Origin: Kalmanozyma brasiliensis GHG001
Taxonomy: Eukaryota > Basidiomycota > Ustilaginomycetes > Ustilaginales
Direction of reading: 5' to 3'
Assembly (NCBI RefSeq): GCF_000497045.1
Contig: NW_015961981.1
Span: 870,401-934,400 of the forward strand
Length of the DNA stretch: 64,000 nt
Shown: piece after piece, positions 15,380-21,690 of the stretch
Layout: each line of letters opens with the position of its first letter
Position numbering within the stretch: position 1 is the stretch's first letter
Notes under the pieces: generated by a model
Database searches by the model: none
What the model was told of the DNA's origin: nothing
The model's input: the letters and a program-made list of their open reading frames with translations, nothing else
Translations under genes and position numbers: made by a program

Positions 15380-15889
15380 AAATGTTGCATTGACATGCAT
15401 TTCGGCTCGATAAGAGCTCGCATTGTCGTTGAATGGATTCGATCAGCAACTTCGTTTTCTATTTGCAATCTCCTACATCTTCACTTTTCTGGATTGTTTG
15501 CTGGTCGTGATTGCGTGAGTGATGCGTGTTCGAATGTAGGTTGCGGGCTTGAGTGCGATGTGCTTGCTTGCCTGTTTGAGTGATGGGCGCCACGCTTGTG
15601 CCAGAGGTGATGAGTGTACGAGGAGTGTGGTCGAGTGATAAAGCAGTTGAGGTCTGGCCACATGCATGGTGGGTTCAAATTCTTCCTGACTGATGGCAAG
15701 CGGTAGCTGCGATGCGTCGTGGTCCGCTTGGGACGGTCTCATTGGCCTTGGATCCTGCTGAGCCGTTGATATTGAGCGAAACCACGAGTAATGGCGAGGC
15801 TCTCTGCATTGTCATGAAGCTTTAAAGCGAGACGTTGGCGCGGGAGTGGCAGCGACTGACGGCTCCTGAAGCAACGCAATGACTCGTCT
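15380..15889. other. eIF5A 3' flank, no gene seen
   Basis: AT-richer DNA directly after the stop codon, probably the 3' UTR and terminator. A GTGGTCGAGTGATAAAGC ... GGTTCAAATTC pair resembles tRNA A and B boxes but has no foldable T stem. No protein similarity is visible. Confidence 0.5.
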
Positions 15890-15899
15890 GTGGAGACAT

Positions 15900-16159
15900 C
15901 GTCTGGACGCTGCGGTGACCCCTGGTCTCGACCTCGCGTCACCGACGCCCACATGCAGCAACTTTGCTCTGACGCTCAGAAGTTCGACGACTTCCCTCAA
16001 GACAGGCTGGTCGAGTATCTCGACGTCAACGCGGAGGACGACGTCAACATCGCGCTGCACGAGCGCGACATCATGCCTGCCACCACCCATCTCGAGCTGA
16101 GATTTCTCAAAATCCTCCGCGCCGTCGCCGGGCTGAACCTTTACCCGCACCAGAATCAA
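15900..16159 (+). pseudogene. RPC2 gene fragment 1, N-extein side
   Basis: In the frame starting at 15890, the sequence from about RCGDPWSRPRVTD to LNLYPHQNQS matches the intact RNA polymerase III second subunit encoded at 18181-21690 (region [10 protein letters not shown] to PYPHHNQS). By eye about two-thirds of residues agree (roughly 51 of 77), with conserved runs [15 protein letters not shown] and TTHLE. The fragment has no start codon, covers under a tenth of the protein and lies on the opposite strand from the intact gene. A short deletion removes the RPLII segment near its left end. At its right end, right after NQS, the frame passes into intein-like sequence instead of continuing with PRNTYQC. 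It is a broken duplicate, not a gene. Confidence 0.85.
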
Positions 16160-16570
16160 TCGTCGAGGATCGACCAAGATGTTCTTACAAGAAGGGGCTG
16201 GAAGAACATTGCCTCGGTCAGAGGGGATGATGAGGTGATGAGCCTCAACAAGGAGACCTTGGCCCAGGAGTGGCAGGCCCCGACCAGGGCCTTCAGGCGC
16301 AAGAATGACGGAAGAACCTCTTCCGGCTACACAGCGCGATCGTAGATGCGAATGGTCACACCAGAGCATCGGTGGTACGTCAATACCCGGGAGGAAGAAG
16401 GGACGCTGGAGAAACTGGTGACGGAGGACATCAGCAAGAATCTCGGCCTGTCTTCGCTCCGGGTCAGCGGCGTCGCTAAGGGTCAGTGGGATCATGAGTC
16501 TGGCACGACGACGCACAGAAACCGTCGCATCTCCGTGCGCGGCAAGGCTCTCAACCCAACACACGTGTAG
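16160..16570 (+). pseudogene. Remnant of an intein N-terminal (Hint) region in RPC2 fragment 1
   Basis: In frame with the preceding RPC2 piece, the sequence reads DQDVLTRRGWKNI ... GDDEVMSLN ... EWQAPTRAF, the pattern of intein block A and its following strands. About 55 residues later comes MRMVTPEHRWYV, which fits intein block B (T-x-x-H). An in-frame TAG (16343-16345) lies just before block B, and a second TAG (16568-16570) ends the segment after KALNPTHV. The residues that should hold the catalytic first Cys/Ser, between NQS and DQDVLT, are missing. So this would be an inactive relic. Bacterial and phage-type inteins and other Hint domains share these motifs; intein identity rests on the insertion site within RPC2 as well as the motifs. 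Confidence 0.75.
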
Positions 16571-16903
16571 TCCGGCCGCGCGTTTCTCCATGTCAAACAT
16601 GATGCTGCACGTGCTGCTGTCGGTGTTCCCAGATTCCCTCCCGCCGCTGTCACGGCCGCCACCACCTCTGGCACCGCTGTTTCCACCGCTACTGCCACCG
16701 ACACCGCTGCTGCCGCCAATGTGCCTCCAGTGTCCCGCTCTGGCGCAGCCATAGTGTGTCCTCCCGCCGCTGCTGGCGCTGATGTACAGCTCGTGCCTCA
16801 GCCAGCCGAGCCCAGTGTACCCGAACCTGTGCTCGACACACCTTCCGTGCCGTTGCAACACCCGCGAGCTGCAAAAGCTGCCGATGCCGCAAATATCTAG
16901 CAG
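16571..16903 (+). other. Ala/Thr/Pro-rich open stretch continuing the intein-remnant frame
   Basis: After the TAG at 16568-16570 the same frame stays open for 110 codons to TAG 16901-16903, encoding an Ala/Thr/Pro/Val-rich sequence (for example TAATTSGTAVSTATATDTA). It resembles no domain I recognise. It might be a former linker, part of another gene, or a chance open frame in GC-rich DNA. Confidence 0.4.
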
Positions 16904-16920
16904 GCCAATGCACTCGAAGG

Positions 16921-17055
16921 CGCCATAGCATGACCGGCAGGCAGCTCGTCGTAGCCGATGAGCTCGATGTGGCGGGTCTTGACCACTGGCTGTTGTGGAT
17001 AAAGGAGGAGGTATAGAAGCGTATCGATGCGGATCTGCTGGTTGTACCCGATGGC
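16921..17055 (-). pseudogene. RPC2 gene fragment 2, inverted
   Basis: Read on the minus strand from 17055, the sequence gives [20 protein letters not shown] and then [21 protein letters not shown], nearly identical to the intact RPC2 ([20 protein letters not shown]...). It ends HAMA where the gene has QNAMVA. It lies in opposite orientation to the pieces on both sides. Its left end meets fragment 3 head-to-head at 17055/17056. Confidence 0.85.
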
Positions 17056-17195
17056 AACAGCTTCAGACGCTCGTCGCTTCGACGACTTCCTGCACAACGG
17101 GTTGGTCAAACATCTCAACGCCAAGGAAGAGAACGACGCTAACAGCGCTCTGCAAGAGCGCGACACAACGCCTGCCACCATCACACACAGGCGGT
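17056..17195 (+). pseudogene. RPC2 gene fragment 3
   Basis: The plus strand starts with CAACAGCTTC (the QQL of HMQQL in the intact gene). After a small indel it reads [20 protein letters not shown] and then [22 protein letters not shown], and stops at TAG 17194-17196. It is a separate, differently mutated copy of the region also present in fragment 1. The same ATG/CAT bases can be assigned to either fragment 2 or fragment 3, suggesting a microhomology junction. Confidence 0.82.
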
Positions 17196-17199
17196 AGTC

Positions 17200-17466
17200 A
17201 TGTACAAGGGTCGAGTCAACACCGGTGTGACCGCCAATGTGACGGCCAAGAGCATCAGCTGGAGCATCAGCGTCTCATACGCCGAATCTGAGCGCTGGGT
17301 GGGCAATAGAAACCCCGAAATCTACGAAAACCCTCACCAAGATGGCTTCGTATATTGCCTCACCCTGCCAAACAGCAACTTTCTCGCTCGCCGTTCCATC
17401 AAATGGGACCAGGATGACCCAGTGGCGAAGGTGAAGCATATCAACCAGCTCTCCTTCTTGACGGGC
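17200..17466 (+). pseudogene. Remnant of an intein C-terminal region in RPC2 fragment 4
   Basis: The frame from 17200 reads [18 protein letters not shown] and, after a spacer, [19 protein letters not shown], which fits intein block F (V-x-C-x-T-x-P-x-x-N-F-x-x-R-R). It then reaches SFLTG directly before extein TYAMGKQ. A functional intein would end in (H/G)-Asn before the Thr, and here the Asn is missing. A stretch of about 20 residues between RRSIKW and SFLTG is longer than usual, so one insertion may be present. There is no endonuclease motif that I can recognise. The fit to Hint C-termini is good but by eye only. Confidence 0.68.
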
Positions 17467-17655
17467 ACTTACGCCATGGGCAAGCAGGCGCAAGGAGCGA
17501 TCGGCTACAACCAGCAGATCCGCATTGATATGCTTCTATACCTGCTGCTTTACCCTCAGCAGCCGATGGTCAAGACGTGGCACGTCGAGTTGATCGGCTA
17601 CAACAACCTGCCCGCTGGACAGAAAGAACGCCATGGTCGCCGTCATGTCGTCTTC
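17467..17655 (+). pseudogene. RPC2 gene fragment 4, C-extein side
   Basis: This continues in frame from the intein remnant: [19 protein letters not shown], then [20 protein letters not shown] and [10 protein letters not shown], matching the intact gene after its NQSPRN. QC is deleted from TYQCAMG. After PAGQ an extra four bases (AAAG) shift the frame. The NAMVAVMS homology then continues in another frame and is lost about 40 bp later. Confidence 0.87.
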
Positions 17656-17689
17656 AGGCCACGCTCCACTCCGGACAAACGCAGCTGAG

Positions 17690-18180: not shown

Positions 18181-21100
18181 CTAGACCGCATCCTCGAGGA
18201 TCAAGCGCGGGACCACCTGCATCGCCATCAGCTCCTGCAACATGAGCTTGGTGCCGTACGGAATGGTGAGCTTGACGACGTGCTTGCTCGTAGCGCAGTA
18301 GGGACAGTATCCGTTGTACCCCATGAGACCGCACTTCTGGCAGGCGTGCACCGTGAAGGCGTCCGAAGAGATCATAAGCCTCTCGAGCAGCAACTGCGTC
18401 GCTCCGTAGCCGATGAGGCAGTCCCGCTCCATTTCGCCGAGTCTGAGGCCTCCATCGCGTGATCGGCCTTCCGTCGGCTGTCTGGTGAGCACTGCTCGTG
18501 GTCCTCGAGCTCGTGCGTGCATTTTATCTTGCACCATGTGCTTCAATCTTTGGTAATAGATGGGCCCAAAGTAGGTATACGCCTCAAACGACTCGCCCGT
18601 GATACCAGAGGTCAAGGTCTCTTTGCCTCCATAGTTGTAGCCGTTCGCGACGAGGATTGCCGACATGTCCTCCACTTTGCTGCCGCCGAACGCGGTTCCG
18701 TACTGCAAGTTTCCCGTAATTACTCCCGCCTTACCGGAGAGCAGCTCGATCATCTTACCCACGGTCATTCGCGAGGGGAAACCGTGAGGATTCATAATGC
18801 AATCTGGGTTGATGCCTTGATCCGTGAACGGCATGTCCTCCTGCTGGACGATTAGGCCGCAGACGCCCTTCTGGCCGTGGCGCGACGAGAACTTGTCGCC
18901 CAGCTCTGGGCGCCTCGTCTGACGAATGAGCGCTTTGATGAGTGTCTGATCCGAGTCAGTATCCGTGATGAGGACCTGGTCGACGTAGCCCGAGACCGGA
19001 GGCTTGTAGGACAGTGGCGCAGACTTGTAGGAGACAGAGGCGGCCGCGTCGGACGCACCGGCCATGATGGCCGCCGATGAGTTGTCGTTCGCATTCATCG
19101 GAGTCTGCTTATTGACGTAGACGTCACCCTGTTCCACCCGCTCACCGACACCTGCAATTCCGTCGGCTTCCAGGATGTCGTAGCGCTTGGGACGCTTGCC
19201 CGTGGTGTCATCGACAGGAGCGTCGGCGAGACGATCGTGCGTGCCGTTGGGATACTTGCGGATCACCGTACTCGATTTCTTCAGGGTTTGGCTTCGACCA
19301 TAGCCCCGGTCCAGGGAAGCCTTGTTGAGAATCAGCGCATCTTCGATATCGTAGCCTGAGAAAGACATCACGGCTACCATGGCGTTTTGACCGGCGGGGA
19401 GCTTGTCGAAGCCAATCAGCTCGATATGCCGTGTCTTGACCATGGGTTGTTGAGGGTAAAGCATGAGGTACAGGAGCGTGTCGATCCGGATCAACTGGTT
19501 GTATCCGATGGCTCCTTGCGCCTGTTTTCCCATGGCGCATTGATACGTGTTTCTTGGGGACTGGTTGTGATGAGGGTAAGGAATTAGACCCGCCACAGCG
19601 CCCAGAATGCAGAACGGCTCGATTTCGAGATGTGTCGTATGCTGTGGGTTGATGTCGCGCTCGTGCAGGGCAATGTTGGCGTCATTTTCCTCGTTGACAT
19701 CGAGATACTCTAGCAATCCGTTGTGGAGGAAGTCGTCGAAGCGGCGAGCACCGGATCGAAGCTGCTGCATGTGCGACTCGGTCACACGGGGCTGACCGGT
19801 GACGGGATCGACAATGATGAGGGGTCGGCAGATGCGGCCGCCGTCGGAAGCGATGTAAACGGTCTGGTGGTGGTGATTGGTGTAGACCGAGACAAACTCG
19901 GAGATGCGGCCGGCCCGACGGAGACGGCGGAAGTGCATCACGAAGCGTTGCGGGAAGCGAGTCACTCCAAGCACGTTACCGTTGAGGTAGACAACGTACG
20001 AGTCGGGTCGATACAGCTCGGCACCGGTGAGCAGATGGATGTCCTCCACTCCGAGAGTGAAGGCGATCCGTGCGATGGGCTCTTCCTCGACGTCTGTTGT
20101 GATGTGAGTGGTGAGAGCCAGGTTCTTAACAAGACCGCAGGCTTCACCTTCCGGCGTATCGGCAGTACACAGCATACCCCACTGCGATGGTTGCAGAGCA
20201 CGAGGTCCCGACACCTTTCTCGTCTTTTCGAACTGCGAGCTGATCCTCGTCATCATGCCGAGTGCAGCGATGAAGGATAGACGGCTGAGAACATGGGTGA
20301 TACCAGCACGCTCCATCTTGAAACGCTTCAGACTCCAGTTGCCCGTCGAGATGGCGCGCACAAAGCCGCTGCTGATGTAGTCGCCGTTGAAGTGGAACTG
20401 GTTGAAGGCGTCAAACTCGACGGTTCGGTTGGGCTTCTTGAGAATCTTGTCGATGTTGAGTTTGAGGTCCGAGTTGAACTTCTTGAAGAGGTCTTCGAAG
20501 AGGAGGGCGAGCAGCTGACCAGCCAACTCGAGACGCTTGTTACCAACGTAGTCTCGGTCGTCAACCTTTTTCTCGTCCTGCATGGCCATGAGCACTCTGC
20601 GAACCATGGAGGCGATGTAGATGGCTTTGGGGCGGAAGTTGAGCCTCTCGACGGGAACGTGGGCCATGATGACGGTAGCGAGAACGTCGAGAGCTTCCTC
20701 GGCGAGAGGTCGTCGCATTGAGAGAGGCTTGCGTGATGCCTTGGCACGGGCGCCGATGTAGTCGAGCGCCTGCTTGCGGGTATAGATGCCAAGGCGAGCA
20801 GCCTCTTCGAGGTTGATGGCAAAGAGCTCCTTGTAGGCGTCATCGTGGCCGGCGACGAGCTGCAGGATCTCACGATCAGCTTGAATGCCCATTGCCTTGA
20901 ATGCGATGGCGATGGGGATGTCTTCATGCAGTGAGTTGTGCTTGAGGAAGATCTTGCCGTGCTTTGTGAGAACGTATGACTTGGATTTGCGCTCGTGAGT
21001 GGACGAGGTGACGGACGCGGATACGGTGCCCTTCTTGGTGTCTGCTTCGACGATGATCCTGTTCTTGCTGAGCTGCTCCTGCACGAGGATGACCTTTTCT

Positions 21101-21690
21101 GTTCCCTTGACAACGAAGTATCCACCTGGATCGAGAGGACACTCGCTCATCTTTGCGAGCTCCTTTTCCGACTTGTTGGAGAGAACACACTTGTTGCTGC
21201 GAAGCATGACAGGAATGCGCCCAATGGCGACATTCTTGCGGCGGATGATCTTGTTGCCTCGAGTGTACTCGATATTGACAAAGATGTGTGCGGAGTAGGT
21301 GATGTCTCGAAGTCGGCATTCGTGCGGTGTGATGGGCCGCTGTACTGCATCACCATCATATCTGCGAGGTTCTCCCACTGTGATGTCGGTGTACTTGAGA
21401 TAGAACTTGGGGTCGATGTCGGAAGTGATCTTCTCGTTTGCTTTGATGATGTTCTTGAGGTCATGGTCGACAAAGTAGTTGTAGGAGTCGATGTGCTGCT
21501 TGACCAGACCTTTGACCTGGAGGAAGGCAGGAACGAGCTCCCACTTGTCTTCGACAGACTTGATGGGGTCCATGAGCCCTTTGCCTTTGTAGTTGGCTGC
21601 TTTGAGCGCTGCAATTGGGTCGTCAGAAGCTGAGGGCGGCATGTGACCCATAGCCTGGGCCATCTCGGCGATGCTGGAAGGGAGCGCCAT
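18181..21690 (-). CDS. RPC2: DNA-directed RNA polymerase III second-largest subunit (C128)
   Basis: 1,169 residues, intronless, from ATG 21690. It has the full Rpb2-family order: protrusion and lobe ([25 protein letters not shown], then NRIIVEAD typical of Pol III), fork, and [18 protein letters not shown] near residue 711. The catalytic-core blocks follow: [20 protein letters not shown] near 787 and [13 protein letters not shown] near 933. Near 1117 is the C-terminal zinc finger [16 protein letters not shown]. It forms one half of the Pol III cleft, making tRNA, 5S rRNA and other small RNAs. The [10 protein letters not shown] site (residues 714/715; 19549/19548) is uninterrupted, whereas fragments at 15.9-17.7 kb carry intein-like sequence at this point. 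Confidence 0.96.

Follow-up and report, generated by a model that had tools for sequence, protein, structure and literature searches.

In this study, we explored the remains of an intein beside RPC2, the gene for the second subunit of RNA polymerase III, in a 64,000-nucleotide (nt) window of a smut genome (G000:C21:870401-934400; 17.27 Mb in 26 contigs); the window is this whole stretch, and coordinates are counted along it unless a contig or locus is named. Our findings support a model where the debris of an intein-bearing RPC2 segment lies next to a working gene free of the intein, and where repeated homing at RPC2 gave rise both to this debris and to a halo of divergence around the insertion site in the RPC2 proteins of related smuts. 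We regard it as practically certain that an RPC2 segment once occupied by an intein survives here as a relic, next to an intact RPC2 that has none, whereas the statement as a whole, with its homing origin of debris and halo, we put at a probability of about 0.6.

The resident gene carries an empty insertion site between codons 717 and 718 (window 19540/19539). Its best-scoring relative is P0032 (95%; proteins are cited by our own numbers), and the nearest ones with a species name are the RPC2 proteins of Pseudozyma hubeiensis, Ustilago loliicola and Sporisorium reilianum (93%), so the host falls within the Ustilago/Sporisorium clade of smuts. Between eIF5A (end 15379) and RPC2 sits a relic bed made of two N-flank and two C-flank pieces of RPC2, the N half and the C half of an intein, and an inverted intein piece:

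18181..21690, minus strand: RPC2, intact and intein-free, 1169 amino acids (aa), a single open frame with seven Rpb2 Pfam domains
15929..16168, plus strand: N-extein relic N1, RPC2 residues 633-713; tblastn E 5e-27, 65% aa identity; blastn 76% (15932-16073)
16169..16600, plus strand: intein N half; tblastn E 7e-21 with the P0044 intein, matched span 16172-16600
16933..17055, minus strand: C-extein relic C2, inverted, RPC2 residues 727-767; tblastn 88% aa identity, E 2e-19
17063..17188, plus strand: second N-extein relic N2, RPC2 residues 646-687; tblastn 67% aa identity, E 8e-14
17179..17466, plus strand: intein C half, ending in TG; tblastn E 4e-27 (Ustilago esculenta intein) and E 6e-23 (P0044 intein)
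about 17470..17662, plus strand: C-extein relic C1, RPC2 residues 718-780; tblastn E 6e-24; blastn 79% (17472-17663)
15643..15804, minus strand: inverted intein piece, aligned to residues 41-93 of the U. esculenta intein; tblastn E 3e-7 (P0026)

The four broken RPC2 pieces that the initial annotation had placed between eIF5A and the intact gene were all recovered, together with its two intein halves; the inverted piece at 15804-15643 had been overlooked. This piece (further tblastn scores: P0018 1.8e-4, P0002 4.6e-4, and just 0.027 for P0044) reads ...GQxDRPKRTTTHRSYRLPSVRKNLNPPCMWPDLNCF. The intein N half is interrupted by TAG stops at 16343-16345 and 16568-16570, and the frame of C1 breaks near 17622, the adjoining piece (17624-17662) scoring E 0.13 by tblastn. 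From the end of the intein N half to C2 (16601-16930) the sequence is Ala/Pro-rich and mostly open; it may be what is left of the linker in the endonuclease part, where the U. esculenta intein has an Ala-rich one. At the DNA level the relic pieces are 76-82% identical to the resident gene, and all four RPC2 pieces fall within residues 633-780 of 1169, the site region being present twice; by tblastn the other ~1020 RPC2 codons have no match between eIF5A and RPC2. What had been taken for an intein-bearing copy of the gene is, then, no more than this central segment in duplicate. The chance that debris would be restricted in this way to the neighbourhood of the site is about 4e-5 by a hand estimate that assumes uniform placement and takes its window from the data. 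Rfam at gathering thresholds gave no match within the 64-kb window.

The identity of the intein rests on its relatives. The intein-like stretch, placed in RPC2 with an X at the stop, served as first query and matched two proteins with an insert (E 3e-29 and 4e-27) that are RPA2 by their Pfam domains. A search with one RPA2 intein returned 30 proteins, the query's own included, from RPA2, RPB2 and RPC2; among their sources are Dothideomycetes, Coemansia, Sorochytrium and Tilletia horrida, and also RPC2 of U. esculenta (P0026), to which an RPC2 search added a second occupied smut RPC2, P0044. The initial annotation had proposed looking for an occupied RPC2 in related species, and these two provide it. 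Both inteins are full-length (565 aa in P0026, 527 aa in P0044) and share FVGFVMGDGGV, which we take to be a LAGLIDADG-type motif. Inteins were excised by pattern, with NQSP ahead and Cys or Ser after; 27 proteins fit, namely 26 of the 30 listed and P0044, while P0011, P0023, P0030 and P0031 (fragments or inteins at other sites) did not. NQSPRxxY[QH] precedes the intein in 26 of the 27, P0025 being shortened there. Group labels such as Dothideomycete take in P0006, P0013, P0014 and P0016, which come without an organism name, as well as P0015, labelled Quercus suber; the assignments looked up were those of Massarina, Vermiconidia and Recurvomyces. In the intein tree, the window relic and a second relic on contig C5 group with both smut RPC2 inteins (100/99), and support for the position of the window relic inside the smut intein clade is 90/81; both relics form long branches. 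Judged by these matches and this tree, the segments are the relic of an intein of the NQSPR-site family of RPC2, RPA2 and RPB2, from its smut branch, and the earlier claim of such a relic beside an intact, empty RPC2 in a smut holds. Elsewhere in the family, the Dothideomycete-type proteins P0014-P0022 carry related inteins in RPA2, RPC2 and RPB2, always at this site, and in the tree those of RPB2 and RPC2 share one unresolved group, as if these inteins had moved between paralogous polymerase genes.

The junctions place the element at the site used by its relatives. N1 continues in frame into the intein N half, and the intein C half into C1 at TG-T/Y-AMGKQ, as had been noticed from the sequence at the outset; this in-frame position is that of the conserved site NQSPRxxY[QH]/[CS]xM (the slash marks the junction). 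The switch point itself had been put at NQS(PRN)/TYQC, with Thr as the +1 residue. Alignment to the relatives corrects both: the true insertion point lies between RPC2 residues 717 and 718, not at NQS/T, and the +1 residue was Cys. Since ACT (17467-17469) stands where relatives have the terminal intein Asn, the apparent +1 Thr is a mutated Asn, and the +1 Cys position is now TAC (17470-17472). We refer to the conserved intein motifs by their customary block names. The relic lacks block A, including Cys1, and the last extein residues, which we read as a probable short deletion; block B (TxxH) is kept as TPEHRWYV, with TPDH in the C5 relic. Blocks F and G of the family read VYCLT...NFLARR...TGN ahead of Cys or Ser; block F is also kept in the window relic, and the changes at the terminal Asn and +1 Cys positions would be as expected of a dead element. 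Alignment shows the pieces to be the remains of an intein formerly in RPC2, with short RPC2 flanks in two versions, next to a resident RPC2 that is empty.

The rest of the genome holds one further relic. With the P0044 intein as query, six matches were obtained at E <= 1. The window accounts for two of them and contig C5 for three, and the sixth is at chance level (0.05). Apart from the latter no third relic was found at this threshold; only the best candidates were scored, so the count of relics is a lower bound. The C5 relic (L005 4183-5483; G000:C5 about 150682-151982) is flanked by CWC25 and a beta-adaptin gene, and the start of RPB2 is 2.1 kb away; by a hand estimate, placement this near RPB2 or RPA2 would occur by chance in about 0.1% of cases. 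Its parts, as matched by tblastn with the smut inteins, are:

L005 4754-4960, plus strand: intein residues 1-70
L005 4398-4183, minus strand: endonuclease part with FVGFVRGDGSV
L005 5483-5049, minus strand: C part

Because these parts differ in order and strand, the C5 relic is rearranged. It retains block A with Cys1 (CLTCDHQVLT) and encloses 57 bp copied in inverted orientation (75%) from the neighbouring beta-adaptin gene (L005 4676-4732); no RPC2, RPB2 or RPA2 extein was detected in it below E 0.7 by tblastn. Relatives of its N half and of the window C half were absent from viral contigs. The C5 N half matched phrog_85 in PHROGs (E 4e-5) and an intein in PDB (E 0.25), both weak and unused as support.

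The relic flanks have a long coding history of their own. Relative to the resident gene, the proportion of synonymous differences (pS) is 0.75 for N1, 0.65 for C1, 0.71 for N2 and 0.59 for C2, against nonsynonymous proportions (pN) of 0.20, 0.10, 0.18 and 0.06, respectively; w is 0.05-0.09 among the flanks and 0.09 overall. The two relic versions differ from each other at pS 0.42 and 0.50 and pN 0.22 and 0.09. In 362 relic codons, in frames read as open, two stops occur, where the mean would be 6.8 at 20% neutral divergence and 2.7 at 7%. The mostly synonymous divergence and the few stops imply a relic lineage that kept its coding function through most of the time it was separate and lost it late; codon comparison shows that the flanks diverged from the resident gene mostly as coding sequence under selection. 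A recent pseudogene copy of the resident RPC2 was considered and is ruled out by pS vs pN.

The second line of evidence comes from the RPC2 proteins of the clade. Of 18 smut rows (P0026, P0032-P0048) nine were compared with the window RPC2, giving 10 proteins, eight of them intein-free. Left aside were P0034, P0045, P0046 and P0048, whose gene models look odd at the site or close to it; P0039-P0042, which by eye closely resemble P0037; and the Testicularia protein P0047 (Anthracoideaceae), which had been kept in earlier alignment comparisons. The odd models belong to U. loliicola, U. trichophora, U. bromivora and M. antarcticus, and inteins or relics may have been annotated there as introns. 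As outgroup we used 102 rows (P0049-P0150) of the best-120 RPC2 list, some without an organism name. One of these, P0051 (RPC2 of Asterophora parasitica), has about 115 residues duplicated in tandem within the gene, over nearly the same stretch around the intein site as the window relic; this duplication may be genuine or an error of the gene model.

The 10 clade proteins vary most around the insertion site, just where the 102 others are most conserved. Their mean pairwise difference is 0.139, 0.092, 0.193, 0.109 and 0.080 in bins of 0-15, 15-30, 30-60, 60-100 and 100-150 residues counted from the site, and farther out it is about 0.045; among the eight intein-free proteins the same bins give 0.129, 0.101, 0.195, 0.096 and 0.059, then about 0.04. 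At 637 columns, 95% or more of the 102 other RPC2 agree; of these columns, those variable in the clade number 34/153 at residues 571-810 vs 13/484 elsewhere (Fisher p 3e-13, columns being taken as independent with no correction for phylogeny). The halo is centred on the site and fades within about 150 residues on both sides. No such peak is seen in seven further sets of RPC2, RPA2 or RPB2 proteins, of which four carry the intein: in each, no bin lies more than 0.001 below the 0-15 bin. The nearest outgroups in the trees, Thecaphora frezii and Pseudozyma flocculosa, deviate at 0/153 halo columns, and Testicularia at 11/153. The halo columns also reject a P0044 + P0045 clade (p 0.0003) that the rest of the gene favours (88/93); in this test the site residues of P0045 and P0034 were masked and P0048 was omitted.

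A similar picture may hold for RPB2 of this genome, which deviates most at the homologous site. Measured at residues conserved in four occupied RPB2, 12/55 differ within 30 aa vs 28/459 beyond 150 aa (p 4e-4, with the 30-aa bin picked after seeing the data; a bin of less than 100 aa gives p 0.006). In a 118-residue stretch, 21 of the 106 residues identical in budding and fission yeast differ here. At the locus itself (around 146229 on G000:C5, minus strand) many changes are visible at the intein site, where hardly any residue differs among the two yeasts and the Tilletia protein. RPA2 (G000:C20 about 736267-739509, L025/L026) reads through the site without an insert, and neither intein nor relic was seen there; its site is NQSPRNCYQ/AQMMKQ, with Ala at +1, where occupied RPA2 has Cys. 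A halo in RPA2 was considered as well and found no support.

Overall, we suggest a scenario of homing turnover, as the common origin of debris and halo, to which we would give odds just short of even. The putative LAGLIDADG endonuclease of the intein would have cut empty RPC2 alleles at the insertion site, and repair from diverged alleles or lineages would have repeatedly swapped the stretch around it. Displaced or captured pieces, consisting of short flanks and intein parts, would then have been deposited just downstream and decayed, the last replacement in this lineage leaving a working, intein-free RPC2; turnover of the same kind across the clade would have made RPC2 most variable around the site. 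In its general form the proposal is more tentative, and the odds lean against it: the RPC2 intein of the Ustilago/Sporisorium clade, perhaps with an RPB2 counterpart, might spread or be shed as the host gene is replaced time and again around the cut site. Every such event would insert a diverged stretch of ~150-240 residues and discard the old stretch and the intein beside the gene, and in the long run a region of RNA polymerase III that ranks among its most conserved would become a clade-wide hypervariable halo, seen even in species without intein.

Several observations weigh against homing turnover. A simple displacement model gives neither the inverted orientation of the debris with respect to the gene nor its position beyond the 3' end, and tblastn with intein queries found no endonuclease core in the RPC2 relic. 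Occupied sets that look stable have no halo (4 RPC2 and 10 RPA2 of Dothideomycete type, 2 Coemansia RPA2 and 2 Tilletia-type RPB2), so an intein alone does not make one. P. flocculosa, placed in Ustilaginaceae by NCBI yet grouping with Thecaphora (100/99 in the rest of the gene), lacks the halo, which is therefore a feature of one clade of Ustilaginales, not of the family as named. The tree conflict is one-sided, as the rest of the gene is compatible with the halo grouping (p 0.21), and the P0044 + P0045 clade was chosen for the test from the same trees. The halo was measured on protein sequences alone, from which repair or conversion and selection are indistinguishable. The RPB2 excess depends on Tilletia-type references: with two Dothideomycete references alone it disappears (15/58 near vs 210/724 far), the Tilletia protein P0029 scoring 3/58 near by the same measure, and RPA2 shows no excess either (11/105 near vs 47/337 far). 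Finally, constrained residues are changed at 19/63 in the N flanks vs 1/46 in the C flanks (p 1e-4), and nothing in any reading considered here explains this weaker decay of the C flanks.

Among the alternatives, the one that survives best separates the two phenomena: the halo would reflect adaptation or relaxed constraint in the polymerase core, in RPB2 as well, and the relic would be an ordinary insertion from failed homing. It draws strength from a halo that spans more residues than the target of a homing endonuclease and that is present among the intein-free proteins alone; we nonetheless consider it rather unlikely, given that the halo centres on the site, fades on either side of it and is missing from the two nearest outgroups. 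Less probable still is an old inverted duplication of the whole RPC2, whose intein-bearing copy long remained functional and later decayed to pieces. The mostly synonymous divergence between relic and gene and the inverted orientation close to it would suit such a history, but the remaining ~1020 codons have left no match and the site region occurs twice. Introgression, where the intein-bearing gene was the resident one and the intein-free RPC2, or its centre, arrived from another smut species with the pieces as leftovers, would account for a large, mostly synonymous, species-like divergence (76-82% at the DNA level, pS 0.6-0.75). Relics and resident gene, however, have rare residues in common, H755 in both relics and the gene and H676 in N1 and the gene, both absent from 10 other proteins compared (U. 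loliicola, outside that set, has H755), and in the halo-region tree the relics group with the resident gene (94/88, not starred), which makes introgression quite improbable.

That the segments are no intein, by chance resemblance or as part of a transposon, is refuted for practical purposes by their scores (7e-21 and 4e-27) against inteins at matching RPC2 junctions. The Hint-profile comparison proposed in the initial annotation did come out negative, as neither Pfam nor NCBIfam gave a Hint match for the window pieces, which formally speaks for this alternative. Yet Pfam equally misses the known RPA2 intein of P. nodorum (P0009), and the absence of a match is therefore uninformative and the check invalid. 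Pfam also gives no Hint match for P0002, P0018, P0022, P0026, P0029 and P0044 and a sub-threshold one for P0025 (E 0.12), and does detect RNA polymerase inteins of another kind in P0031.

Intein loss from essential genes, and the effects of inteins on the host gene, have mostly been argued from presence and absence. Here the segment that bore the intein was discarded but is still present beside the gene it left empty, and a smut clade shows a measurable scar around the site. If that scar is driven by repair or conversion, a selfish protein element would be rewriting the core of RNA polymerase III, and trees of smut RPC2 and RPB2 built from the site region would mislead.

At the level of titles and abstracts, with supplements outside this scope, the literature yielded no description of the window relic, of RPC2 inteins in this clade or of the halo, which does not establish their absence from print; the comparisons that follow draw on passages of the papers cited. 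The RPC2 inteins of P0026 and P0044, the nearest relatives of the relic, share its host gene and site, but sit inside the gene, whereas here the working gene is empty; they are unnamed in the passages searched, supplements again excepted, and may be listed in print. RNA polymerase inteins have been listed for Ustilaginomycotina in general (PMC5784728), and RPB2 and RPB2-like inteins for the smuts Salmacisia and Tilletia (PMC10849329). The latter are likewise smut inteins in a second-largest RNA polymerase subunit, and the T. horrida RPB2 intein (P0029) occupies the same site; P0029 and P0028 nevertheless form a distant branch with no halo between them, unlike the smut RPC2 clade. The RPA2 intein of P. 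nodorum (Phaeosphaeria/Parastagonospora), RPA2-a, was described by Goodwin et al. 2006 (PMC1635734). It resembles the relic in its site (NQSPRNMYQ/CQM), in its Gly-Asn end and in being alignable over both splicing domains, but belongs to RNA polymerase I, while the window relic lies beside an RNA polymerase III gene and in a separate smut branch.

Flank co-conversion by a homing element is known from the plant cox1 intron, including putative intron loss that kept the converted tract (PMC3192709). The closest parallel in layout is WHO at FBA1 in Torulaspora and Lachancea, where intein-derived endonuclease relics and diverged fragments of the target gene lie downstream of the intact gene (PMC7282813). 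FBA1 is hypervariable and tree-discordant beyond the cut site, stray WHO copies occur elsewhere, and in the proposed mechanism each homing event substitutes part of the host gene, the old part remaining downstream; the genes of WHO elements lack exteins and encode a zinc finger (PMC7282813). As at FBA1, target-gene fragments and intein relics cluster beside the intact target gene, although the endonuclease core itself is found in the C5 relic only and not in the cluster next to RPC2. RPC2 is hypervariable around the site as FBA1 is beyond the cut, with a tree discordance that is one-sided in RPC2, and the C5 relic takes the place of the stray copies. Unlike WHO, the element at RPC2 is an in-frame intein whose halves run directly into exteins at the splice points, its halo is two-sided and its debris inverted; the occupied smut relatives, in contrast to the extein-free WHO genes, carry the intein inside RPC2. 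Since it is an ordinary in-frame intein with a two-sided halo and inverted debris, the element at RPC2 is no WHO element; we propose that it works in a related way.

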